DNA of 64,000 nucleotides from Lachnotalea glycerini (GTDB taxonomy: Bacteria; Bacillota; Clostridia; Lachnospirales; Lachnospiraceae), in NCBI RefSeq assembly GCF_003201285.1, contig NZ_QICS01000013.1:1-64000 (forward strand). The letters are read 5' to 3'. Below the pieces are notes generated by a model. It made no database searches and was not told the origin of the DNA. It saw only the letters and a program-made list of their open reading frames with translations. The translations under genes were made by a program, and so were the position numbers. Numbering within the stretch: position 1 is the stretch's first letter; each line of letters begins with the position of its first letter. This document shows positions 1-50,938 of this stretch, piece after piece.

Positions 1-3000
1 ATAATTCGCTCGGCTTCACCAAACGCAGTTACAAACAACCCTCCTGCATACGCATAACTGTCAGTTTTTGTGGTTACTTCTCCATAACGGTTTTCCAGGC
101 TTTGTGTAACCGGATCCACATATACCTCACTCTCTACCTGAACTTCTCCCGGAAAATGTAGGTAATCTGAGATTCCTGCCGTTGTTTTGACTGTTTTTGT
201 GGGTTCACTTTTGATGTGAATCTCTCCCGGCATTGATACAATATCCCCGATTCCCGCTGTTGCTTTTATCGTGTTTGGTGACAAATCACTACTGCTAGAT
301 GAATTAGATCCATAGCTTGCGTATTCATGATAACTGTGTCCACTCGGGTCAACGTAATTAACCGGATTATTACCCGTATACGCATACAGATTCTGTGTCA
401 GCGGATCTTCCAAGCTTCCTGTATCGGTGTCCTGTGTCAGAAATCCTCCGATACTGCTATTATAATACCTTGCTCGTAGATATTGCAATCCGGTATTGGT
501 ATCCACTGCTTCCGCATTGTACCCATAAGGGCTGTCGGTTTCTCCACTTACCTGTGCCACTCCGTAGGCATCGTACTGATAGGTCACCGTTGGCGTTGCG
601 TGTACACTTGTTAAGGCAGATACGCTTCCTTGTCCGTCATACAGATAATACTGCGTCTGGCTGGCACCGTCACGCAGGTTCGTATAACTGTTTCTCTGTG
701 CACCGTAATCATATACAGAGGCTGCCTTGTCATTGACATCATATTCCATCAGAACCTGCGTATATTCCTGATTCACATCATTGACATAGCTGGTCATTTG
801 ATAGTTTTCCCGCTCAATATCGTCTGTTCCGCTTGGAATCAGTACAGTTTCATACAATGCTTTTTCATAACCGCTTAATTCTTCTAATTCCTCCTTGGGA
901 ATGAGTGCGCTTCCCTCCTCGTACTGCTTTTCGCTTTTGATATGAGTCTTGGTATCGGTTTCTATCTCAGGATTACTTTGCCTCACATCAGTCTGCGTTG
1001 TTTCACTCCACTTTGGCTTTGCTTCCTCCCGCGTCAAAGATGTCTCATTCTCTTCAGACACTGATGCTGACGCTGTTGTCTGATACTCGGTTGTCTTGGT
1101 ATGCCTTACGATATAATACTGATTGTTGATATAATCCCATGCTTCACGAAACCAGTTGGATAAATACTGCGGTGCGCCGCTAAAGCTCTGGATTAAGGCT
1201 TGCCCAAATCCATACCAGAAGATATTGACACTAGGGTCTACGTAAAGTCTGGTTTCCTCTATTTCTGTGTTCGGGGCGTAGCTTGGATTGTCTGCTTTTT
1301 CTTTCGCCTTTTCCTCAACTGTTACTTCCTTGGTTTGGTCACCTGCTTGCTGATGATAACTCTTTCTTGTGGCCGTTGTCTGGGTATCACGGCGGATAAA
1401 GGTTTTCTTAATGCTCTCTGTCACCTTATCCCAAGTGAATACGCCACGGCAGGTATCATATTCGACCGGCTTTTGCATGCTTTGCTCACTTGAAACAAAG
1501 TCCTTGTGTTCTGCAATGGTTTCCTCATAGCTTTCGCTTGTTCTTTCTACGGTAAAAATCCGGTTTCCATCGCCGTCATACAGAGCCGCCATTAACAGGG
1601 TTCCCTGCTCTTTAACGGAATTCAGACGGTTTTCCACATCATAATAATAGCTTACTTCCTCTTCACCGGGTGCCAGTTCCTTTACCATATTTCCGTTCTG
1701 ATCGTACTCATAGATGGTTGTCCCATTCTTACTGTCCTTTGAGCTAATCAGGCGGTTGGCTTCGTTATAGGTATTCTCAGTCCACTGTTTACTGATGGTA
1801 TCTTCCGACTTTTCAATGCAGATACGGTTGCCTGCCTGATCGTAGGTGTAACGGATATCGGTTTCTTTTTTATCCTGTCGCTTCACAACTTTGGTAAGCT
1901 GACCTCGAAGGTCATAGGTGAAGCTGCTCTTAATGTTGATTTTGTCCTTATCTTGGTACTGTGTCTCTTCCTCTTCAGTGATAAAGCCACTGTTGTCATA
2001 GCAGTAGGTATAGGAAGAAAGGACTTTTCCCTTTGCGTTTTGGTTCTCTACTAAGGTTACCTGATTTAATACATCGTAGGTAAGCTTTGTTACGGTTTGG
2101 TTTGGCCGCTTAATCTGAATTAGATTTCCTGCTTCATCATAGGTGTAATGGGTTTCCTTTTTATTACGGTCAGTCAGCACCGTCAGTCTGTCCAGTGCAT
2201 CATAGGTGTAGGTGACGGTTTTACCATCCGGATAGATTAGCTTTGAGAGGTTTGCGTAGGAATCATACTCATAGTGTATTTCTTTTTGGTCACTGGTTCT
2301 TACAAGAGCAATTCTTCCTGCTTCATCGTATTCATAGGAGGTGGTTCCTGTTACATCCTCCATGGAGATTTTTCGTCCCTCACTGTCGTAGGCGTAGAGT
2401 ACGTTTTCTTTTTCGTGCTCTTTTCCATAATCTATCGCTACAAGCTGGTCAAGCTGGTTGTAATCATATTGTATGGTGGTGCCATCTTGCTGCTTTTCTT
2501 CCTTTAATCTTCCCTCGATGTCATAGGTAAATTCCAAAATCTCGGAAAGCGGATTCGTAGTGGATGTCATTCTTCCAAGTAAATCGTAGGTGTAGCTTGT
2601 CGTATTTTGGTTTGCATCGGTCACACTTTCGAGATTGCCGACACTGTCATAGGTATAAGTGGTTTCAATTCCATCACCGTCTGTTACTTTCGTAATCCGG
2701 TCTGCCAAATCATACGCGTAGGCAATGCTTCTGCCCTCTTCATCCATAATCGAGGTAAGGTTTTGGTTTCCATCGTAGGTCAGCTTTAAACTGTTTCCTT
2801 TTGCATTGGTGATTGCTGTCTTTTGACCTATTTTGTCATACTCGTAGGAAGTTTTTTGTCCAGCAGCGTCTATGACACCTGTTACTTGATTCTTATTATC
2901 ATATTCATAGCTTGTGGTCTGTAACAAAGCATTGGTCACAGACGTCTGGTTTCCCACTGGGTCGTAACCGTATTGTGTGCTTCGGCCTCCATTTTCGGTC

Positions 3001-6000
3001 AACTTGGTTAAATTGCCAACAATATCGTAGGTTAGTTCTGTCACCTTTCCTACCGGGTCGGTCTGTGTCGTGATACGGTCAAGCACATCATAAGTGTAGG
3101 TGGTCTTACTTCCCAATGGTGATACGACACTTGAAAGATTCCCCGCATCATCATAGGTATAAGAGGTAGTTGCATTTTCTTCATTCGTGGTCGTAAGCAG
3201 CCGATGCTGCTTATCATAGGTATAGGAAACCACTCTTCCTGCCTGATCGCTTTCTTGTATCAAATCTCCGACACTGTCGTAGGCATATTGTCGGGTTTGA
3301 TTTTCTGGTGCTTCCAGTTTCGTCAATCGACCAAGCTGATCGTAGGCATAGGAATATTGTGCTCCGTTTGGAAGGCTTCGTTTGACTGCCTGATTGTTTT
3401 GGTCATATTCTAACTGGGTAACACCGCCGAGTGGGTCAGTAACGGTGGTGGTGTTTCCATGTCCGTCATACGTATAGGCATAGCTTCCGCCATTTGGAGT
3501 GGTAAGCTGTGTGAGCTGGCTGACTGAATCGTAGGTATAATTGGTTACATTACCTGCTGCATCCTGATATTTGATTAAATTACCAAGGGCATCATATAAA
3601 TATTCCTGCTTTGATTTGTCTGCCTCCTCTACTGCAATGACCTGTCCAAGGGCATCATAGGTAAAGCTTGTTTTATTTCCATTTTGATCTTTCTGTGAAA
3701 GAAGATTGCCTGTGCTGTCGTATTCAAAGCTCTTGGCAGCTCCTGCTGCATCCTGTACCTGTGTCAGGTTGCCAAGTAGATCGTATTGATAACTGTTTTT
3801 CTCGCCAAGTGGATTGGTATCACTGGTTAAATTGCCAAGCTGATCATAGGTATATTGATAAGTGCGAAGCAGCTCATCCTCCTTTGAAATAAGACGGTTG
3901 TTCTTATCATACTCATAGGTGGCCGCTTTCCCTTCTGAATCTGTTATTTTTATCACATTTCCCATTTTGTCATATTCATATTGGGTAGTATTTCCATCCA
4001 GTGCTGTAACCGAGGTTAAATTTTTGCTGACATCGTAGGTATACGTTGTTTTCTGTCCCAGACTGTTTGTGAGGGAGGTGATATTTCCAAATGCATCATA
4101 GGTATATTCCTTGCATTCTCCTGCACTGTTTTCTTCCTTTAACAACTGTCCCTTTTTGTCATACTGATAGCTTGTTTTTAGTCCTTCACTGTCTGAGGAT
4201 TCGATTAAATGATTTCGACTGTCATAAGTATAGGAAAGGAAAGACTGGTTGGGTGCCACGATTTTTGTATTGTTTCCTGCACTGTCGTATTCTAAATCAT
4301 AGCGGTTCCCATTTGCATCAATGACCTTTACTACCAGCCCTCTTTTATTAAACTCATAGGCTGTTGTGCCGTTTAAGGCATTGGTTATGGCGGTGGTGTT
4401 TCCTGCCTCATCATAGCTTATTTTTGTTACAAAGTTTCTCTGGTCAACTGTCTGAGTAAGCTGATTCACCAAATCGTAACAATTCTTTGTTGTATTTCCG
4501 AGTGAATCCGTTGTCTGTATCAGGTTGCTGTTGTTATCGTAGGCAAAGGTAGTCAGATGACCCAGCGCATCGGTTACTGCTGTCAGATTGCCGATTTTGT
4601 CATATTTGTATGCTGTTTCGTTTCCAAGTGCATCGGTCTGCTTGATTAAATTGCCTGCTGCATCATACGCATATAATATGGTGCCTGTATTTGGTAGTGT
4701 CTGTGCAATCATTTGATTTAGGGCATCATAAACAAAGAAGTACTTCTTTCCATCACTGCTTATCATTTGTGTCAGGTTGTCATTTGAATCATATCCTAAA
4801 TTGGTTACAAGACCGCCCTCTTGTTCATATTTTGTCATACGGTTTGCCGCATCATATTCAAAAGTAACCTGTTCTCCATTCTCATCGGTCTGCTTGATTG
4901 GAAGTCCGTTAACCGAATAGGCAGTGGCAATCTGTGCTCCCAACGGATCGGTTTTTAAGGATACTTGATTGCAGCGGTAATCGTATTCATAAGAAGTGGC
5001 ATTCCCATTTGCATCGATTTCTTTTACTTTATTTCCTGCCACATCATATTCGTATTGAATCGTTTGTCCTTCTGCATTGGCAGCAGAGATTTGATGACCC
5101 ATACTGTCATAGGCATAGGTTATGGCTTCCCCCTTTGGGTTGATTTCTTTGGTCTTATTTCCATTGGCATCATATTCATAATGATACACTCTGCCCATGG
5201 GGTCTGTTAAGGTAACAATGTTTCCGTTTTTGTCATGGGTAAAGCTTGTTTGTCCACCATTGTAATCAACGATTGCAGTAATATTTCCTGCATTGTCATA
5301 GGTGTAATCCGTACTTTTGCCTGCCGGATTGATTTCCTTTACTTTACGCCCTGCGCTGTCATACTGATAGGTGGTTGTATTTCCTGCCTTATCTGTAAAA
5401 GAGATTATATCTCCCTTGCCGTCGTAGGAAAAGGTCTGGGTTTGCCCCATTGCATCAATGATGCTGTGCACCCAAGGTCCTTGATAGGTAAACGTCGTCT
5501 GTAAGCCTTTTGCATCTTTCATTTCTGTTACATGATTGTTTGTATCATAAGTGTAGTAAATACTGCGATTATCTGGCTTGGTTATCTTAATGAGGTTTGA
5601 ATTACCATCATATTCATAGGCGGTAAGGTTTCCTGCATAGTCAGTCTCACTTAACAGCAGATTCTGGCTGTTGTAGGAATAAGACTTACTAGCCCCGTCA
5701 AACCTTGTCTCTTTTGTCATGTTTCCACTGGCATCGTATTCATAGACGGTTTGATGTCCCAGTACGTCGGTTTCTGCTGTCAGTTGATTGCCACTGTAGG
5801 ATTTGGACACGCTCGAGCCATTTGGGTAGGTAATCTTGGTTGTCCTATGCTGGTCATCATAGCTATAAATGGTTTGTGCTCCTGTTCCATCTGTCGTAAT
5901 TGTTTTTCCATCCTGATAGGTAAGAAAGCACTCGTTGTTGTTTGCATCGACCTGTCTTGTTACTCTATCCTCACTGTCATAGGTGTTGCTTACGACTCTG

Positions 6001-11928: not shown

Positions 11929-12441
11929 TTATATAGGACAAACTAAACGAATAGCATTAGATATTATTTTTTTTGTAGAATTGCTAGCATCTGGAATAAC
12001 AAAATCCACAACTGCATAAATTGCAGAATCAATACTATCATCTACGCTGATAACACCATCAAGTAATTGATCTACTGCTGATGAAATACCTTTTCCTGTA
12101 GCCAATGTGACACCATATTTTTTGAGAATTTTTTCAATTTTTGTAGCATTCTTTTTTAAAAATTTTATTACAGTTTTAACTCCTGTTGAAATTGCTTTAC
12201 CTTTTGTGTTTGAATTAAAAGTTATTATTTCTTTACTTTCAATATTATTATATAGATAAAAAGTATCTATGGTTCCAAATTCAGTAATTAATTCGATAGC
12301 AATTTTTTTAGCTGTTTCATCTGATATTACATTTTTAGATGTAACAATAGTAGTAGAAGTTTCTGCAAAAGTAGGAATTGTGTTACAAATTATTATTGCA
12401 CAAATTAATATAAATGATGTAAAAGTTTTTAAAAATTTCAT
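11929..12441 (-). CDS. Small secreted protein, unrecognised, next to the Rhs locus
   Basis: The 170-residue protein has a clear Sec signal peptide (about 1-27, FILICAIIICNTIPTFAE) and a mature part of about 143 residues. The middle is Lys-rich and amphipathic (FLKKNATKIEKILKKYGV), followed by a Gly/Ser/Ala turn region and an acidic segment with VDDSIDSAIYAVVDF. Only one cysteine remains, near the C-terminus. A GGGGG-type ribosome site precedes the ATG. It is followed by a two-helix membrane protein. The lysine-rich helix could suggest a bacteriocin or membrane-active factor, but I recognise no family, so that is speculation. Confidence 0.65.
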   Translation of the reverse strand: MKFLKTFTSFILICAIIICNTIPTFAETSTTIVTSKNVISDETAKKIAIELITEFGTIDTFYLYNNIESKEIITFNSNTKGKAISTGVKTVIKFLKKNATKIEKILKKYGVTLATGKGISSAVDQLLDGVISVDDSIDSAIYAVVDFVIPDASNSTKKIISNAIRLVCPI

Positions 12442-44130: not shown

Positions 44131-44211
44131 TATAAATTAAGCTTCTTTATTTATATTTTCCTATTTTATTTATTTTATCACATGAATGTTGTACATGTGC
44201 TTTCCACTATT

Positions 44212-44376
44212 TTATTCATCCTCTTTTAGATTTAATACAGTATTTTCACACATTTCTCCGGTTTGAAAACTCATGTGCTCATATTCAATCGTAGGTTCCT
44301 TGACAAAGGACACCCAGTAATCCGGTACCTGATGTGCAAAATTGCACACAGGACATTTGTATAGATACACTTCCAT
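44212..44376 (-). CDS. 54-residue zinc-ribbon-like small protein
   Basis: The ATG at 44376 follows AAAGGAGAAG and the frame runs to TAA at 44212. The product starts MEVYLYKCPVCNFAHQVPDY and continues with WVSFVKEPTIEYEHMSFQTG. It has one CPVC knuckle near the N-terminus and a single later cysteine (EMCEN), so the zinc site is half or degenerate unless it dimerises. The acidic C-terminus ends LKEDE. I do not know a function. It lies upstream of glnA in the same direction, but the glnA promoter separates them. Confidence 0.65.
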   Translation of the reverse strand: MEVYLYKCPVCNFAHQVPDYWVSFVKEPTIEYEHMSFQTGEMCENTVLNLKEDE

Positions 44377-44547
44377 AATCTTCTCCTTTCAAAGTACAAT
44401 TTATTTTTACTCGTTTGCGAAACGCCATAACACGCATAAATGCCATGTTTTTTCATTTATAAAATAAAAATCTCTTCAATGGTTTATGTTAAAATAGAGT
44501 TGTTCAGAAACCATTTTAGCAATCCACCAAAAAGGAGATGCATACTT

Positions 44548-44721
44548 ATGATACCATATAAACAACTCTCTTTGGCAGAAATTTTTGAAGATTGCCAAAA
44601 TAAATTTGATAATGATAAATACTCGTTTCTTTCTCTTCTTAATGAAACCATTAATCTTGATGAAATTGTTCCTGTTTCTTTAGTTACTCACTTTCATTGT
44701 CACTATATTGAATGTAGATAA
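44548..44721 (+). pseudogene. Truncated IS1182-like DDE transposase (N-terminal fragment)
   Basis: AAAGGAG precedes an ATG at 44548. The 57-residue product (MIPYKQLSLAEIFEDCQNKF, then FLSLLNETINLDEIVPVSLV) matches the N-terminus of IS1182-type transposases. It stops after HFHCHYIECR, where family members continue for about 400 residues. The remainder of the element is absent, so it is a dead remnant that still has its translation signals. Confidence 0.75.
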
Positions 44722-44935
44722 TAAGAAAGCCGACAAGTCCGCATCAGCTCCCTGAGCCCTCACTCATGAGGGACTTGACCGCTTTCCAGCGCCGAATACA
44801 GTCACCCAGTGACATTTACTTGTATTCGTGCGCATCCTGCGGAGCATTTTTATGTAATAGTACGCAATATCTTATTACATAAAAAATTTTAATTATATAT
44901 ATTATTGCTCTCACAATATGTTAATTTAGATCAAA
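44722..44935. other. Region after the transposase fragment with structured repeat copy B
   Basis: No ORF was found. It contains CCCTCA-CTCA-TGAGGG (about 44756-44772) and the nested hairpin at 44789-44835 (GCGC/GCGC, GAATACA/TGTATTC, GTCAC/GTGAC). Its base composition is more GC-rich than its surroundings, consistent with an inserted element end. Confidence 0.5.
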
Positions 44936-44964
44936 TTGACAGTTATAATAAATTCGCATATAAT
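44936..44964 (+). promoter_or_regulatory. Perfect consensus promoter upstream of the first YcxB-like gene
   Basis: TTGACA (44936-44941), 17 bases, TATAAT (44959-44964). It lies about 190 bases before the coding region, with a second weaker promoter in between that is shared with the paralogue. Confidence 0.7.
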
Positions 44965-45157
44965 ATAATTAAGTTTTAGCAAAAGAAAAGTACTGAATTT
45001 GTATTTAATCAAAAACATATTCCAGAGAATACTGGTTGTTTGCATATGAAAATATCTGTTGTAATATAATAAGTGTAATTTTACTTATAAAATTTGTTAA
45101 ATTTATAATAAAAGTTTTCATACTGTTTATTTATGAATAGAAAGATTGGAGAAGAAA

Positions 45158-45694
45158 ATGGAATTCGAAATAATAGTTGATCAAACAGAGAAAAGATTTA
45201 AAAAAACCTATAAATCAGGAATTAAATACTGGATTAAACATGATAGGATGATAGGTAAAACTCTTTTAAATATTGTAAATATAGCGTCTGCATTATTGGT
45301 TCTTATTTCCATAATACTTTTTATTTTAGATCCTCATAATTACATTGTACCATTAAAGTTTTTAGTATGTGCAGTATTGTATTTTTTTATAACCCCTGTT
45401 CTTTTTAAATACTTAATTTATGCGATACACAAAAAAGAATTGAAATGTAATTTAAAAATGAGTTTCTCACAACATGAATATATAATCTACCACCTAACAC
45501 ATAAAGTTAAAATACCATATAATGAAATTAAAAAATTAGTAGAAACAGAACAGTTTCTTTTATTATATCCAATATTATCTTCTGATAGAAAGAAACGGGG
45601 AAAACAAGCTGCTCTTTTCCTCTCTACATATATTTTTAGCAATCAGCAACTTGAATTATTAAAAGAATGGATAAATCAAGATATTGCTGTATAA
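45158..45694 (+). CDS. YcxB-like membrane protein, paralogue 1
   Basis: A 178-residue protein from the ATG at 45158 (GGAGAAG just upstream; the TTG at 45146 sits on the ribosome site). It has a cytoplasmic N-terminus, two adjacent helices (about 40-80), and a C-terminal PH-like YcxB region (KIPYNEIKKLVETEQFLLLY then ILSSDRKKRGKQ). The same architecture and the identical LLLYPILSSDRKKR motif occur in the next gene, so the two arose by tandem duplication. No biochemical role is known for the family. Confidence 0.8.
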   Translation: MEFEIIVDQTEKRFKKTYKSGIKYWIKHDRMIGKTLLNIVNIASALLVLISIILFILDPHNYIVPLKFLVCAVLYFFITPVLFKYLIYAIHKKELKCNLKMSFSQHEYIIYHLTHKVKIPYNEIKKLVETEQFLLLYPILSSDRKKRGKQAALFLSTYIFSNQQLELLKEWINQDIAV

Positions 45695-45831
45695 CACACA
45701 TATTTATACTGAATAAACACCCGTATTCCACGGTACTAGCATTGATTCGTCTAACAACATATTTTCAATATAGCACTCAGACTTAATTCAGTAAGTTCTT
45801 TATTATAGATTGGGATAAAAACACTGTTTGT

Positions 45832-45860
45832 TTGCATATAAAAATCTGTTGTTATATAAT
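45832..45860 (+). promoter_or_regulatory. Duplicated promoter of YcxB-like paralogue 2
   Basis: TTGCAT (45832-45837), 17 bases, TATAAT (45855-45860). The equivalent promoter before paralogue 1 carries two extra bases, giving a 19-base spacer. The whole upstream block of about 90 bp is conserved between the two genes. Confidence 0.55.
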
Positions 45861-45936
45861 AAGTGTACTTTTACTTATAAAATTTGTTAAATTTATATAA
45901 AAGTTTTCGTACTGTTTATTAATATTGGAGGATAAA

Positions 45937-46470
45937 ATGGAATTTGAAATATTAGTTGATCAAAACGACAAAAGGTATAAAAAAAATTATAAATTAAGCA
46001 TTGACTATCGGATAAAAGCTCATAAAGTGATAGGAAAAATATTCATTAGGTTATTAAACATACAATGTGTTCTACTCGCGCTTTTAAGCCTTTTACTTTT
46101 AATATTAAGACCACAAGATTATATTCATCCATTATTATATTTGATGTGGGCTTTTTTCTGGTCTCTTACCCCTAAGGTTTTAAGGTCTATAACTTATGTG
46201 AAGAATAAAAAAAAATTAACGTGTATTATTAAAATGAAATTCTTACAACATGAATTAATATCTTTATTTCCAAACGGTGAAATGAAAATTATATATAATC
46301 GAATTAAAAAGTTAGTAGTTACGGATAAATTTCTTTTATTATATCCAATATTATCTTCTGATAGAAAGAAACGGAGAAAACAATTTGAATTCTATATTCC
46401 CACATATGTTTTTAATAACCAGCAACTTGAATTATTAAAAGAATGGATAAATAATGATATAGCTAAATAA
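45937..46470 (+). CDS. YcxB-like membrane protein, paralogue 2
   Basis: A 177-residue protein from the ATG at 45937 (GGAGG at 6-7 bases). It has the same layout as paralogue 1: two hydrophobic helices at about 40-80 and a C-terminal YcxB domain ending in NNQQLELLKEWIN. Roughly half the residues agree by eye, and the strongest identity is in the C-terminal LLLYPILSSDRKKR segment. Each copy has its own promoter region, so they can be regulated separately. Confidence 0.8.
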   Translation: MEFEILVDQNDKRYKKNYKLSIDYRIKAHKVIGKIFIRLLNIQCVLLALLSLLLLILRPQDYIHPLLYLMWAFFWSLTPKVLRSITYVKNKKKLTCIIKMKFLQHELISLFPNGEMKIIYNRIKKLVVTDKFLLLYPILSSDRKKRRKQFEFYIPTYVFNNQQLELLKEWINNDIAK

Positions 46471-46606
46471 CAAAGCTTTTTATTTTATCTCGGACATCTA
46501 TCTAAAATAACGATTTATGAGTGTAAAATGTTAGATGCTTAATTACATAACAATTTATACAATCGAAATTTTATAGAAATCCTACTAAATAAAAATATTT
46601 TTACAT

Positions 46607-46649
46607 CAAGACCCTAAATACTTCATAAATGAAAGTATTTAGGGTCTTG
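46607..46649. terminator. Perfect 17-bp-stem terminator
   Basis: CAAGACCCTAAATACTT and AAGTATTTAGGGTCTTG are exact complements with a 9-base loop. On the minus strand it is followed by a TAAAAATATTTTTATTT tract. It can serve both the YcxB-like genes and the converging DUF1906 gene. Confidence 0.85.
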
Positions 46650-46699
46650 AATTAACAATATTTCTACTCTACTTGAATATAGCATATTTTAGCAGAGTA

Positions 46700-48925
46700 T
46701 TAAGTTACAGAATTATTATTAGTTTCAGAATCATCACTATTATCATCTTTAATTTCAGTTAATCCCAAAAATCCCAAAACAGCGATAAATGCTGTTGTTG
46801 CTTGTCCTGTTGCTGTTCCTCCCGTTTGGTAAATAACATACGCGCATGCAGCAAGTGCTGCTACTGCAACTACTCCGACTACTAACCCTTTTGCTAAACT
46901 CTCTAATTTGTCTAGGAATTGCTCGGAAGCATTAGAAACTAATGCCTCTTGATACGCAATATTATCAAATGAGCTTTTCTTTATAGAAATTGTATATAGA
47001 AAACTAACATTTTGCTTATAATATGTACCCACCTCAACTTTGGTTGAAATAATATAACTTGTGTTTATCCAAGTTCCATCTGTTGTAACCACTACTTTTC
47101 CTTTACCTGTACCAACCATTGTAGAAAGGGAAATAATTGGTGTAATACTTGCGTTACTGGTGTCTAGGCCTAAATTCATCGTTACATTATCGATTAGACT
47201 TACAGAATCAACATAACTGGTTCCATTTGTAATCGTAAATGTCATATTACTACTTTCACTATCATATAATGTGGTGTCTTGTCTAATACTATATGACAAT
47301 TTTACATCCTCCGTGATAGGAATTTCATAGGTTACATTAGATCTTAAAACCAAAGGAATTTGAGGAGCCGGAGCATCAAGTGCATTTAAAAAATCTGATA
47401 GTTTTGATACTACTGCTTCTTCAATCTCGTCATCGGTTGGTAAATTTATATAATTAACCCCCGTATTTCTTCCAGAATTAGAATCTTTATCTATTTCAAT
47501 TAGTCCATTACCACTACCTACAGAGGTTGTATAAAACTGGTCAAATGCCCAATTATCTGGCATTTGATAGCCAAGATTGCCACTGTACCCGGATGACATA
47601 TCACCTACAAAACTACTAATTGCGTAACCTGCATCGTAAATGCGTGTACAAATATTACGGGAACCATAAATACCAATACGATAAGATGTGGTAGCATAAT
47701 TACTAAAATAAGAACTAATTGATTGAAAATATGGAAGTACATTGCTGTTGATCTGTCCATCTAAAGCATCATAATCAACTGCAAAATAGATTATTGTATC
47801 GCTAGGTATTCCAAGATTTTCAGCTGCTTTTACTGCTGCTTCTGCATCTTTTGTCCCTTGAGTGGATGTAAAATAAGCATTACTTGCACCGCCCGCTTGA
47901 TAAATCGGGAAAAATTTCAAACCAGCATTAAATATGATCTGAATTTCTGAAACTGTCAAAGCTTTACTAATCCCATTTGCGGTACCCGTCAAATATCTTC
48001 CTACGATGGAATAACCATTGTTCTTTAATGTAACTGCTTTTTCTGTTGTCAAAATTGTCGCGCAATCACATGCAGAAGCTGTACGGGAAGTATCTCCGCA
48101 GCTAGTCATAAGTGCTCCCCATGTATTTTTTCCAACAATTCCATCTGCTGAAAGGCAGAAAAATGTTTGAAAGTTTACCACTGCTGAATATGTTCCTGCT
48201 CCAAATGTTCCTGTAAAGCCTCCCGGATAATATCCATTCACACACAATGCCCATTGTAAAATTCTTTTGGTATTTGGATAACCACTTTTATTTTTTGATA
48301 AGGTAGGGCAAGCACTTAGTGTACCGCTGCCAAATGCTCCATCCGCTGTTACACTACATTCTTTCTGCAAAGCTTTAATCAGGTTTTTGTGAGAATTCCT
48401 TTCCCATATACCATTGGAAGGTGAAAGACCAAAAGAAGCACCGTACATACTGTTCAATCCTTTTTGAACTGCTCGAATATTTAAATCACCATCCGAATCC
48501 AGAGCATACCCATCCGTATTCATAATTGCCTTTAAAATATATGGCTTAATGATTCCATCTTGCGTTATACCCGCATCTTCTTCAAACTTTTCTACTGCAT
48601 TTGTTGTAGCTGGCCCAAAAACTCCATCAAATCCTCCCGGATTATATCCTTTGCACCAAAAGGAGCCCTGAATAATATAATGTAGATTGCTGGGAGCTGC
48701 TGAACTCGAGTCTGCAACTTCACTGATTTGTGCAGGGCAAGCACTTAATGTACCCTCTCCAAATACTCCGTCCGCTGATATGCCAAGCTCTATTTGAAGT
48801 GCTTCAATTAGAGCTTTAAACGTTGCTCTTCCCGTTATACCATCTTCAGTAACTGGGGAATAACCTGAAATGCCTGTATAGGTTTTATTAACCCATTTTT
48901 GTGCTTGCAAAACTTGTTCATCCAT
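46700..48925 (-). CDS. Peptidoglycan-binding DUF1906 (GH25-like TIM barrel) protein of a holin cassette
   Basis: The 741-residue protein has no signal peptide. Four peptidoglycan-binding-like modules fill about 1-275 (GVFGEGTLSACP, GVFGPATTNAVEKF, GAFGSGTLSACP, GTFGAGTYSAVVNF). A DUF1906/Rv2525c-like glycosidase barrel follows at about 285-495 (NNGYSIVGRYLTG, IIYFAVDYDALDG, YRIGIYGSRNICTRI, WAFDQFYT), then a beta-rich region at about 500-660, and a C-terminal hydrophobic hairpin (LVVGVVAVAALAACAYVIY, TAFIAVLGFLGLTEI). With a holin and TcdR-like sigma gene just upstream and a matching promoter, it is probably the released or wall-acting product. Enzyme activity is untested, and the modular ends are unusual for a phage lysin. 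Confidence 0.88.
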   Translation of the reverse strand: MDEQVLQAQKWVNKTYTGISGYSPVTEDGITGRATFKALIEALQIELGISADGVFGEGTLSACPAQISEVADSSSAAPSNLHYIIQGSFWCKGYNPGGFDGVFGPATTNAVEKFEEDAGITQDGIIKPYILKAIMNTDGYALDSDGDLNIRAVQKGLNSMYGASFGLSPSNGIWERNSHKNLIKALQKECSVTADGAFGSGTLSACPTLSKNKSGYPNTKRILQWALCVNGYYPGGFTGTFGAGTYSAVVNFQTFFCLSADGIVGKNTWGALMTSCGDTSRTASACDCATILTTEKAVTLKNNGYSIVGRYLTGTANGISKALTVSEIQIIFNAGLKFFPIYQAGGASNAYFTSTQGTKDAEAAVKAAENLGIPSDTIIYFAVDYDALDGQINSNVLPYFQSISSYFSNYATTSYRIGIYGSRNICTRIYDAGYAISSFVGDMSSGYSGNLGYQMPDNWAFDQFYTTSVGSGNGLIEIDKDSNSGRNTGVNYINLPTDDEIEEAVVSKLSDFLNALDAPAPQIPLVLRSNVTYEIPITEDVKLSYSIRQDTTLYDSESSNMTFTITNGTSYVDSVSLIDNVTMNLGLDTSNASITPIISLSTMVGTGKGKVVVTTDGTWINTSYIISTKVEVGTYYKQNVSFLYTISIKKSSFDNIAYQEALVSNASEQFLDKLESLAKGLVVGVVAVAALAACAYVIYQTGGTATGQATTAFIAVLGFLGLTEIKDDNSDDSETNNNSVT

Positions 48926-48970
48926 AAAATTTACCTCTTTTCTGTTTATTGAATCGGCCGTTCAATTAAT

Positions 48971-48998
48971 AAAGATAATTTTTATTTGTTTTTGTAAA
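48971..48998 (-). promoter_or_regulatory. TcdR-class-like promoter of the DUF1906 gene
   Basis: TTTACA (48993-48998), exactly 16 bases, ATCTTT (48971-48976), then ATTAATTG on the minus strand. It shares spacing and boxes with the promoter at 50121-50148 of the sigma gene. It lies about 46 bases before the start codon. Confidence 0.65.
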
Positions 48999-49147
48999 CA
49001 GTTTTCAATTATCAAATCTAATTTTTCACTCACCCGTAGGATAGATTATATAGTGTTTTTCCACAAATAAAAAAGGAAACTACGCACTGTTAATTTAAGC
49101 GATCCGTTCCCTAATAAAATAATCTCTTTATTTATGGTATCCTATTA

Positions 49148-49546
49148 TTATGTGTCACTGCTGAGCTTTTGTATGGCGTCTTTTAATTTTTGAGGAATTG
49201 CCAGACCTAATATCCCCGCATTTTCTAGAATACTGATACCTTCGTTTGCTAAATAAAACATAATAATCAAAGTTCTAAGTGTGCTCCCAGTATTTAAAAT
49301 ATAATTATCCATAATATTTCCCATAGATACAATAATTAATATTAGTATCTTTTTTATAATCCCCTTATATCCCACTTCACTCGAGAGTGTTTTATTTTTA
49401 ATAGCGAGCATTATACCCGTTATATAATCTATTATTATAAAAACAATAAGAGCATAAATCAAAGCATCCAAGCCTCCCAAAACCCAACCTAAGATTCTTC
49501 CTAGAAATGCTACGATTAATTTACCATAATCAATTAAATAATTCAT
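49148..49546 (-). CDS. Phage-type holin (Holin_4/TcdE-like)
   Basis: The 132-residue protein has three or four hydrophobic helices and the family pattern: DALIYALIVFIIIDYITGIM, LSSEVGYKGIIKKILILIIV, then LRTLIIMFYLANEGISILEN and GLAIPQKLKDAI. TcdE of toxigenic clostridia and many phage holins belong to this family and form membrane pores. GGAGG overlaps the end of the sigma gene, so the two are translationally coupled. It probably opens the membrane for the DUF1906 protein, which lacks a secretion signal. Confidence 0.9.
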   Translation of the reverse strand: MNYLIDYGKLIVAFLGRILGWVLGGLDALIYALIVFIIIDYITGIMLAIKNKTLSSEVGYKGIIKKILILIIVSMGNIMDNYILNTGSTLRTLIIMFYLANEGISILENAGILGLAIPQKLKDAIQKLSSDT

Positions 49547-49559
49547 TTCACACTACCTC

Positions 49560-50096
49560 CTAAGCCATATAATCCTTTTTTAATTTTCTCAAAGCTCGAT
49601 TTTTCATTTGATTTACTGCTTGTCTTGATATGCCATAAAAGTTAGCAATATCATTTACTGAAAACCCATAATAATATACCAATTCAATTATAGAAATCTC
49701 TGGAGCTGTAAGAAAATCTTGAAGTGATTCCATATATAACTTAAAATGCGAATCATTTGTAGCCGACAAAGATTCAATATAATATTGTTCACTTTCACTT
49801 AAATTAGAATAAATAAATAAATTTTGTAACCTTATTATCTCATTTAGCCTTTTCACATAACTACTATGAATTGATGTACATATGTAAGACACTATACTTC
49901 TTTCTGCTTTGCTTTTAATGTTTTCTACATGAAAATTGTGAATACACTCAATAAAATTTAAAATCAGGTCATTATAAGCATCTTCATAGTTCAATTTAAA
50001 TGCATACTTCTTTAGCAAGGGTGTAAATTTATTAATAAGTTTCAATGTTGAATCTCTATCCCCTTTTTGAGATTTTACAATATCATTTATCGTCAA
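49560..50096 (-). CDS. TcdR/UviA/BotR-like alternative sigma factor (group 5)
   Basis: About 178 residues, the size of TcdR, BotR and UviA. It has an N-terminal region-2-like helical part (TPLLKKYAFKLNYEDAYNDL, FIECIHNF), and a C-terminal region-4 HTH (LVYYYGFSVNDIANFYG then SRQAVNQMKNRALRKLKK). I prefer a TTG start at 50096, 7 bases after AAAGGTGG; the GTG at 50108 lies on the ribosome site. The gene is followed at 13 bases by the holin gene. Its own promoter resembles the target class of these sigma factors, implying autoactivation. Confidence 0.83.
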   Translation of the reverse strand: MTINDIVKSQKGDRDSTLKLINKFTPLLKKYAFKLNYEDAYNDLILNFIECIHNFHVENIKSKAERSIVSYICTSIHSSYVKRLNEIIRLQNLFIYSNLSESEQYYIESLSATNDSHFKLYMESLQDFLTAPEISIIELVYYYGFSVNDIANFYGISRQAVNQMKNRALRKLKKDYMA

Positions 50097-50120
50097 TTTG
50101 TATCCCACCTTTCATTAAAT

Positions 50121-50148
50121 AAAGAGATGGAATACAAAAAATTGTAAA
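50121..50148 (-). promoter_or_regulatory. TcdR-class-like promoter of the sigma-holin unit
   Basis: TTTACA (50143-50148), exactly 16 bases, CTCTTT (50121-50126) on the minus strand. As I recall, published TcdR-dependent promoters have a TTTACA -35 and a CTCTTT -10. It starts about 25 bases before the start codon. Confidence 0.65.
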
Positions 50149-50481
50149 CGTCTGATAAATTTTAAATAAATGCAAAACAAATTACTAATTATAGCAATAT
50201 AACTGCTATTTTTTAAAAATTGTGTAATTTTGCTTAATTATTTCATATTTATGTTACAAAAATACTATATGTAATTACAATTCAAATAATATTTAATATT
50301 TTTTGGTTGGTTTACTACAGCATAGAAAAATTCTCTACATTTACCTATCCTTATTTTGATATCTATCGTTTATAACCTACGCACTAGGTAATAATCTTTT
50401 TTCCTTTTTTTACGGTTATCGAAACTTTTGTACCCTTATCCCTTTTTATACTCTCGTCATTAGTCAGCCATATTTGCACAT
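50149..50481. other. AT-rich control region upstream of the sigma gene
   Basis: About 330 bases with very high A+T. No ORF with a ribosome site and no clear hairpin. It may hold regulator sites for the sigma gene. Confidence 0.4.
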
Positions 50482-50598
50482 ATGAGATTAACAGAAGAAA
50501 AAGCATCTGCACTTTTTGATAAAGATATTTTTAAAGCTAAGATTGAAGATACGATTAGAACATTTAATGTAAAGATAGCAGACCACGTGCAAATATAG
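50482..50598 (+). pseudogene. 38-codon ORF remnant bounded by 9-bp inverted repeats
   Basis: The frame reads MRLTEEKASALFDKDIF then KAKIEDTIRTFNVKIADHVQ and stops at TAG 50596. No ribosome site precedes the ATG. TATTTGCAC (about 50471) and GTGCAAATA (about 50587) flank it as inverted copies. It ends just before a strong terminator, so it may be the tail of a decayed gene. The family is not recognised. Confidence 0.4.
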
Positions 50599-50601
50599 TA
50601 C

Positions 50602-50643
50602 GAAAGCTCGGAAATTCATGTTTTACTGAATTTCCGAGCTTTC
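50602..50643 (+). terminator. Strong intrinsic terminator after the ORF remnant
   Basis: GAAAGCTCGGAAATTCA and TGAATTTCCGAGCTTTC are exact complements around a short loop, followed by TTATAT. The stem is far better preserved than the coding sequence ahead of it. Confidence 0.8.
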
Positions 50644-50938
50644 TTATATCATATCACTCTGCTCTTATTAATTTTCCATTTTTCTATATTTTTAAATAGT
50701 GAAATATCAAACTGTCACATCTGGTAAATCACTAAGAATTTGCAGTAATTTGGTTTTACTCTGTTTACTAATAGCTGCACTGTGTTGCTAGTCTCCAATT
50801 CTTGAAATTTGGCAAACAAAACTTCTATTCTGTTGCAACTAAGTTTACGAACTAGTTTCGCAATTACCTACAAATCTATGAATATTTTTTATCACTATTT
50901 AATACATTATATAAAGCAAAAATATAGGAGGGCTTTCC

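Follow-up and report, generated by a model that had tools for sequence, protein, structure and literature searches.

Described systems and the Lachnotalea glycerini cassette

The described systems closest to the locus treated here, a sigma factor–holin–effector cassette in the first 64,000 nucleotides (the window) of contig NZ_QICS01000013.1 from the 4.86-Mb draft genome of Lachnotalea glycerini, are the bacteriocin Bac41 of Enterococcus faecalis, the Bcn5/UviA/UviB system of Clostridium perfringens and the TcdR/TcdE toxin loci. For Bac41, the secreted components are BacL1, an endopeptidase, and BacA (PMC9951850), and types are described that differ downstream of the bac gene and have specific immunity factors (PMC8532689). 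Bcn5 is a signal-less, wall-active bacteriocin with a hydrophobic, variable C-terminus that is accompanied by a group-5 sigma factor and a holin, all of which it shares with our locus (PMC9527704). Gene content, homology, promoter pattern, recurrence in other genomes and acquisition as a compact insert can be read from the sequences compared below, and the cassette is probably a self-regulated, holin-linked bacteriocin with immunity, made up of the sigma factor, the holin, a BacA-like effector and YcxB-like protection. Its features are as follows.

44136..50895 (edges approximate), acquired insert between glnA and a gene for a 147-residue protein, delimited by aligning the flanks with two same-genus genomes that have the site without the insert
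45146..45694, plus strand, YcxB-like membrane protein 1, candidate immunity (PF14317 at an expect value (E) of 0.077, below cut-off; homologue at the same place in locus L005)
45925..46470, plus strand, YcxB-like membrane protein 2, candidate immunity (55% identical to copy 1; no Pfam match)
46590..46666, inverted repeat with 34-nucleotide arms between YcxB-like copy 2 and the 3' end of the effector gene
46700..48925, minus strand, BacA-like effector of 741 residues (peptidoglycan-binding repeats, DUF1906 barrel at residues 299-481, variable hydrophobic C-terminus)
46700..47467, minus strand, effector C-terminus of variable sequence, beginning near residue 487, by homologue comparison
48971..48998, minus strand, group-5 sigma promoter TTTACA-N16-ATCTTT, 73 bp before the effector gene, from a motif scan
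49148..49546, minus strand, holin of the PF05105/TIGR01593 (TcdE) type, by profile searches
49560..50096, minus strand, group-5 (TcdR/UviA-type) sigma factor with a preferred TTG start (open reading frame (ORF) 49560-50108)
50121..50148, minus strand, group-5 sigma promoter TTTACA-N16-CTCTTT, 52 bp before the sigma gene, from the same scan

An E. faecalis plasmid record, which we take as the bac41 operon, carries in order genes for a 595-residue peptidoglycan amidohydrolase, bacL2 (whose product passes NF041508), a phage holin, a 175-residue protein, a DUF1906 protein of 726 residues, a 180-residue membrane protein and a YcxB protein; its DUF1906 gene is presumably bacA, and the next gene bacI. 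The window effector is homologous to this DUF1906 protein (tblastn, 40% over residues 1-554; blastp, 37% over 770 columns), and the two loci share the order of regulator, holin, effector and membrane plus YcxB gene, the TcdE-type holin family and a hydrophobic effector C-terminus. The first-pass annotation had held that a wall-active protein in the cargo position was without precedent, a view that is not supported: in the bac41 operon a regulator gene and a holin gene precede that of a homologous DUF1906 protein, and Bcn5/UviA/UviB is organized likewise. In contrast to bac41, our cassette lacks the 175-residue gene, is a chromosomal insert, and has YcxB genes that are convergent and duplicated. 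The window sigma factor does not resemble the Bac41 regulator BacL2: NF041508 was outside the best 25 of 44 NCBIfam matches, and blastp gave an E of 5.6.

Unlike the Bcn5 system, the window has a TcdE-type holin rather than BhlA beside the sigma gene, the insert contains no separate endolysin gene, and the effector carries DUF1906 and peptidoglycan-binding repeats, not SH3b and an M14 peptidase (Pfam). With the TcdR/TcdE toxin loci it shares the sigma group, the holin type, TTTACA promoters and a sigma gene lying upstream of its cargo in the same direction, whereas the protein in the window's cargo position is directed at the wall and has no relation to theirs. Pore-forming colicin operons have a convergent membrane immunity gene, comparable to the candidate ones here, a release protein and a C-terminal hydrophobic hairpin, but a different envelope and a different control. 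Because BacL1, BacL2, SH3b and M14 were not found, we file the cassette under neither Bac41 nor Bcn5; on our best reading it works like both, mixes Bac41 with Bcn5/TcdR logic, and realizes a known plan with a new combination of parts. Among the literature matches listed, which cover few subscription papers, no publication dealt with this combination, with the promoter across commensal loci or with YcxB as immunity.

Sigma factor, holin and TTTACA promoters

The three minus-strand ORFs are present where the first-pass annotation had put them, and its outer coordinate, 50148, turned out to be the edge of a TTTACA promoter element. The annotation had overlooked the hydrophobic end of the effector, the YcxB-like gene pair at 45146-46470, the second copy of the promoter at 48971-48998 and the homology to bac41. 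The sigma ORF matches PF04545 (5e-10) and TIGR02937 (45.4 bits, cut-off 42.9), and its better start is the TTG at 50096, 7 bases past AGGTGGG. An SRQ motif is found in region 4.2 of the window sigma factor and of five of the seven aligned relatives, with TRQ in L005 and L087; this motif is proposed as a marker of the TcdR-related group 5 factors that read a TTTACA -35 element (PMC4031146). UviA, which controls a bacteriocin, is a TcdR-related factor, and genes for sigma factors of this kind are mostly found directly 5' of their cargo (PMC4885068). The TcdR/UviA-type assignment of the annotation thus stands on the SRQ motif and the TTTACA promoters. The proposed TcdE-type holin coupled to the sigma gene was borne out too, as it matches PF05105 (1e-39) and TIGR01593, 'toxin secretion/phage lysis holin', well above cut-off (97.5 versus 40.2 bits), and lies 13 bases 3' of the sigma gene; the effector start follows 222 bases past the holin gene.

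In the window, TTTACA-N16-HTCTTT occurs twice, before the sigma gene and before the effector gene and nowhere else, against an expectation of 0.16, and a count of two was attained in 2 of 100 shuffles. The suggested self-regulation is therefore supported by sequence, the same promoter type preceding both the sigma gene and the cargo. Across 24 sigma loci, with spacers of 14-17, we counted 36 matches, of which 25, in 13 loci, were upstream of an ORF (20-130 bp before one of at least 100 residues) where 1.9 would be expected if uniform, although these loci share ancestry and the matches are not fully independent. By comparison, 22 loci whose lack of the sigma factor was confirmed by profile yielded 6 matches, none upstream of an ORF. 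The reversed motif gave 4 matches (1 upstream) in the sigma loci and 9 (0) in the loci without sigma, and a scrambled motif 3 (0) and 11 (0), respectively. Since the spacer range had been fixed after seeing L027, the 19 loci that had played no part in defining the motif were counted separately, with 26 matches, 19 of them upstream, for 1.4 expected. L124, a copy of L123, was left out, and L029 belongs to neither set: here the motif is present, the locus's own sigma-like ORF is weak (8e-7), and a sigma-holin pair lies elsewhere in the genome (L120), so that control in trans is only possible. The ORF size limit leaves out small holins, and the motif lies just before the BhlA gene in L005, L021 and L087. 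Genome-wide, a longer form of the pattern has 4 sites, 2 of them at the locus, and its reversed control none; the other two were rejected as sigma targets, being within or at the ends of other genes.

Matches to the sigma profile were obtained in 20 of the 397 family genomes searched, L107 and L115 being among the matches. A holin accompanies the sigma gene in 16 of the 24 sigma loci (8 TcdE-type, 8 BhlA-type, as counted with two small local models, which other holin families would escape), BhlA being the type in the relatives L005, L021, L087 and L040. Six cargo proteins scanned at sigma loci have peptidoglycan-binding, CHAP, amidase or glucosaminidase domains. Other products stand behind the motif as well: related proteins of about 175-182 residues in L005 (6160-6693), L027 (6232-6759) and L087 (13264-13812), with no Pfam match above cut-off, and, near the sigma gene in L119 (2060-10951), two 47%-identical 226-residue proteins and one of 369 residues; the one 226-residue protein scanned matched no Pfam family. 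L031 has an AgrB-like gene (2579-3181; PF04647, 8e-20) between sigma and effector genes, a hint that the trigger in that locus is a peptide signal.

Effector family, candidate immunity genes and insertion site

Pfam assigns to the effector PF01471 repeats, PF08924 at residues 299-481 (1e-50) and an overlapping PF09374, and otherwise nothing. Four peptidoglycan-binding modules had been proposed; NF052336 does give four, but only three stretches individually exceed the Pfam cut-off. A hydropathy window revealed no N-terminal hydrophobic segment, in agreement with the earlier view of a signal-less cargo, and a hydrophobic stretch at residues 680-698; the variable C-terminal part from about residue 487 is presumed to be the killing domain. 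All 12 aligned homologues keep the acids D287, D384 and D386 of the DUF1906 barrel, so enzyme activity is possible. The nearest named relative found, 80% identical, comes from an uncultured Lachnospiraceae genome, and near-relative scans gave one locus in genome_contigs and none in viral contigs. Contig C3 of the same genome also bears a degenerate remnant of a second BacA-like gene (L034:9030-9592).

In sampled subsets of genomes, a profile of the front half (E<=1e-40) matched 17 of 397 from the family, 9 of 391 from the class and 3 of 398 from the phylum, the L. glycerini genome being included each time. Plasmid records were matched by tblastn in 544 of 72,556 cases, 384 of them Enterococcus, and phage records in 7 of 50,697, where the best match is an unannotated contig whose effector is identical to the chromosomal effector of genome G102. 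MT836466.1 (L020), filed as phage, and the chromosomal L030 have the same effector and next gene; L020 is probably not a phage, and the neighbours of L030 look conjugative by eye. The homologues in L022 and L079 adjoin genes that look phage-like by eye, so the effector family is not confined to non-phage sites.

Our comparison took in 22 complete homologues that lack a signal-like start; those that have one (L023-L026, L028, L082) and those that are partial or degenerate (L032-L034, L084, L085, L089) were left out. Conserved among the 22 is the wall-binding/DUF1906 half; their C-termini differ, 15 ending in hydrophobic segments and 7 being of other types. When the C-termini of these 7 and of 3 hydrophobic homologues were searched against Pfam, one family passed, PF21015 in E. 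faecalis; that of L027 is lysozyme-like by eye only. The next gene, picked by hand from ORF lists and scored by hydropathy window, could be read for 21 homologues: in 19 its product has one or more membrane segments, and in 11 of the 21 it is convergent; the two that lack a membrane segment are L005, cut by the contig end, and one Terrisporobacter. In three locus pairs the next genes are similar, and all three pairs are also similar in the effector C-terminus, though similar front halves may be the common cause. Sigma, holin and wall-active cargo recur together in other genomes, in support of the annotation. A Terrisporobacter plasmid unites a BhlA holin, a sigma factor, a DUF1906 protein and a convergent YcxB gene, and a Terribacillus plasmid a DUF1906 protein, YcxB, a holin and a regulator. 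Of the forms with a signal-like start, L023 (1-3623), L024 (9945-16409) and L025 (44-7075) join the same front half to large C-terminal regions, RHS-like by eye in L023, and are possibly a Sec-exported branch.

The two YcxB-like genes of the window form a tandem pair convergent to the effector gene, the duplicated blocks being 77-90% identical with their upstream DNA included. Among next genes of relatives, PF14317 was matched with an E of 0.0013 in L081 and of 0.016 and 0.12 in L078. In an AlphaFold2 (AF2) model of copy 2 (predicted local distance difference test (pLDDT) score 77.8), a membrane hairpin precedes a small beta domain. A fold search with this model returned nothing at E<=0.001, the best match being of PH/FERM type at 4e-3. 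In L081 (11130-16469), six paralogous candidate immunity genes in tandem converge on a BacA-like gene; the other five share 46-87% identity with the first, and the set is possibly a collection of immunities against rival types. L021 has an immunity-like gene, an orphan effector C-terminal fragment (11962-12297) and a second, paralogous immunity-like gene. Arrays of this kind mark polymorphic toxin-immunity loci. A perfect TTGACA-17-TATAAT site lies at 44936-44964, 182 bp before the first YcxB gene of the window; an ordinary sigma-70 promoter scan of the insert gave 46 sites against 44.2 in shuffles, and constant expression of immunity is therefore not claimed.

Judged from the aligned flanks, the cassette is a compact acquired insert. 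glnA, the 147-residue gene and a NAD synthetase gene, the last of which occurs in 3 of 3 genus genomes searched (its own included), keep their order in both same-genus relatives, where the cassette is missing. The gap from glnA to the 147-residue gene measures 162 bp in one relative, and in the other it holds an IS30-like transposase gene. As with these flanking genes, whose names were assigned by eye, the neighbours in the insert of about 6.8 kb were named by eye, and no recognisable phage gene was seen among them. The claim that no phage structural gene is present is accordingly supported for the insert but cannot be extended to the homologue family, given L022 and L079. The inverted repeat between the convergent effector and YcxB-like genes is possibly a two-way terminator.

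Weighing the readings and the proposed mechanism

Several results weigh against reading the cassette as a bacteriocin with immunity. Neither holin kind was found in 8 of the 24 sigma loci, and the sigma gene is in the same stretch for only 9 of the 22 effector genes. With one mismatch allowed, the window count of the motif is 2, less than the 3.9 of chance; a shorter motif has 11 matches genome-wide against 7 for its reverse, so no further sigma target is claimed, and the group-5 motif is absent from the E. faecalis bac41 operon. A BacL1 homologue was not found in the genome of L. glycerini in a search run without a positive-control genome. The YcxB assignment is weak by sequence, in view of the sub-threshold PF14317 value of copy 1 and no match for copy 2, which lacks a plasmid match as well, and the effector C-terminus has no usable model (AF2 pLDDT 41.9).

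Among other explanations, we regard a domesticated lysis cassette as unlikely, yet as the most serious competitor: the sigma factor would trigger the holin and a wall enzyme, some cells would lyse to release other material or in altruistic death, and the YcxB genes would be passengers. A holin with a wall-active protein is indeed the classical lysis pair, and plain amidases, a glucosaminidase or CHAP proteins occur at other loci of the sigma factor; homology of the effector to a bacteriocin operon protein, its varying C-termini, the membrane genes that come next and the immunity-like gene arrays argue against it. Peptidoglycan-binding repeats and a barrel with invariant D287, D384 and D386 would also suit a wall-remodelling enzyme secreted through the holin for the cell's own use, without killing, but we consider this quite improbable for a protein of variable C-terminus that is so sporadic among family genomes and missing from two genomes of the same genus.

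That the genes come from a prophage, as a lysis module still live or left behind as a remnant, is highly improbable, even if PHROG matches are endolysins and holins and the L022 and L079 homologues sit beside phage-like genes; the insert shows no recognisable phage gene between flanks conserved in order, and the few phage-record matches are led by an unannotated contig with a chromosomal effector. This module was rejected on the empty sites in two relatives and the flanking genes. We give hardly any credence to a toxin acting on animal cells: loci of such toxins have the same types of regulator and holin, but Pfam finds nothing except wall-binding repeats and DUF1906, and the effector's homologue is part of a bacteriocin operon. 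What the first-pass annotation put forward as a general release or secretion system is more readily understood as a bacteriocin together with immunity genes.

On this favoured reading of a self-regulated bacteriocin, the sigma factor would transcribe its own sigma-holin operon, raising the levels of both products, and would switch on the effector gene from the second promoter of the same type. All steps beyond transcription are ones that we infer, that is, killing, immunity, holin-dependent release and any hydrolase activity. The TcdE-type holin may let out the effector, which has no Sec signal, with or without lysis; outside, the peptidoglycan-binding repeats and the DUF1906 barrel would anchor it in the wall of a related cell or breach that wall, and the hydrophobic C-terminus could act on the target membrane. 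One or both of the convergent YcxB-like membrane proteins would protect the producer.

More tentatively, with doubt slightly outweighing belief, we speculate that BacA-type proteins are polymorphic bacteriocins with a shared wall-binding/DUF1906 half and interchangeable C-terminal killing domains, that YcxB-like membrane proteins confer immunity to the hydrophobic type, and that in gut Clostridia regulons of these and other wall-active killers are set by a TcdR-type sigma factor, TTTACA-N14-17-NTCTTT promoters and a paired holin. If this is true, the regulators of the large clostridial toxins would form a single branch within a broader family that controls bacteriocins. The cassette itself joins systems that have been studied apart, namely Bac41 with its DUF1906 effector, Bcn5 with UviA/UviB, and TcdR/TcdE, and offers a promoter signature that finds members together with a candidate immunity family. 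It also suggests that the BacA-type protein of Bac41 may itself carry the killing domain, and provides a commensal setting, with no human toxin involved, for the holin-dependent release of a folded protein.

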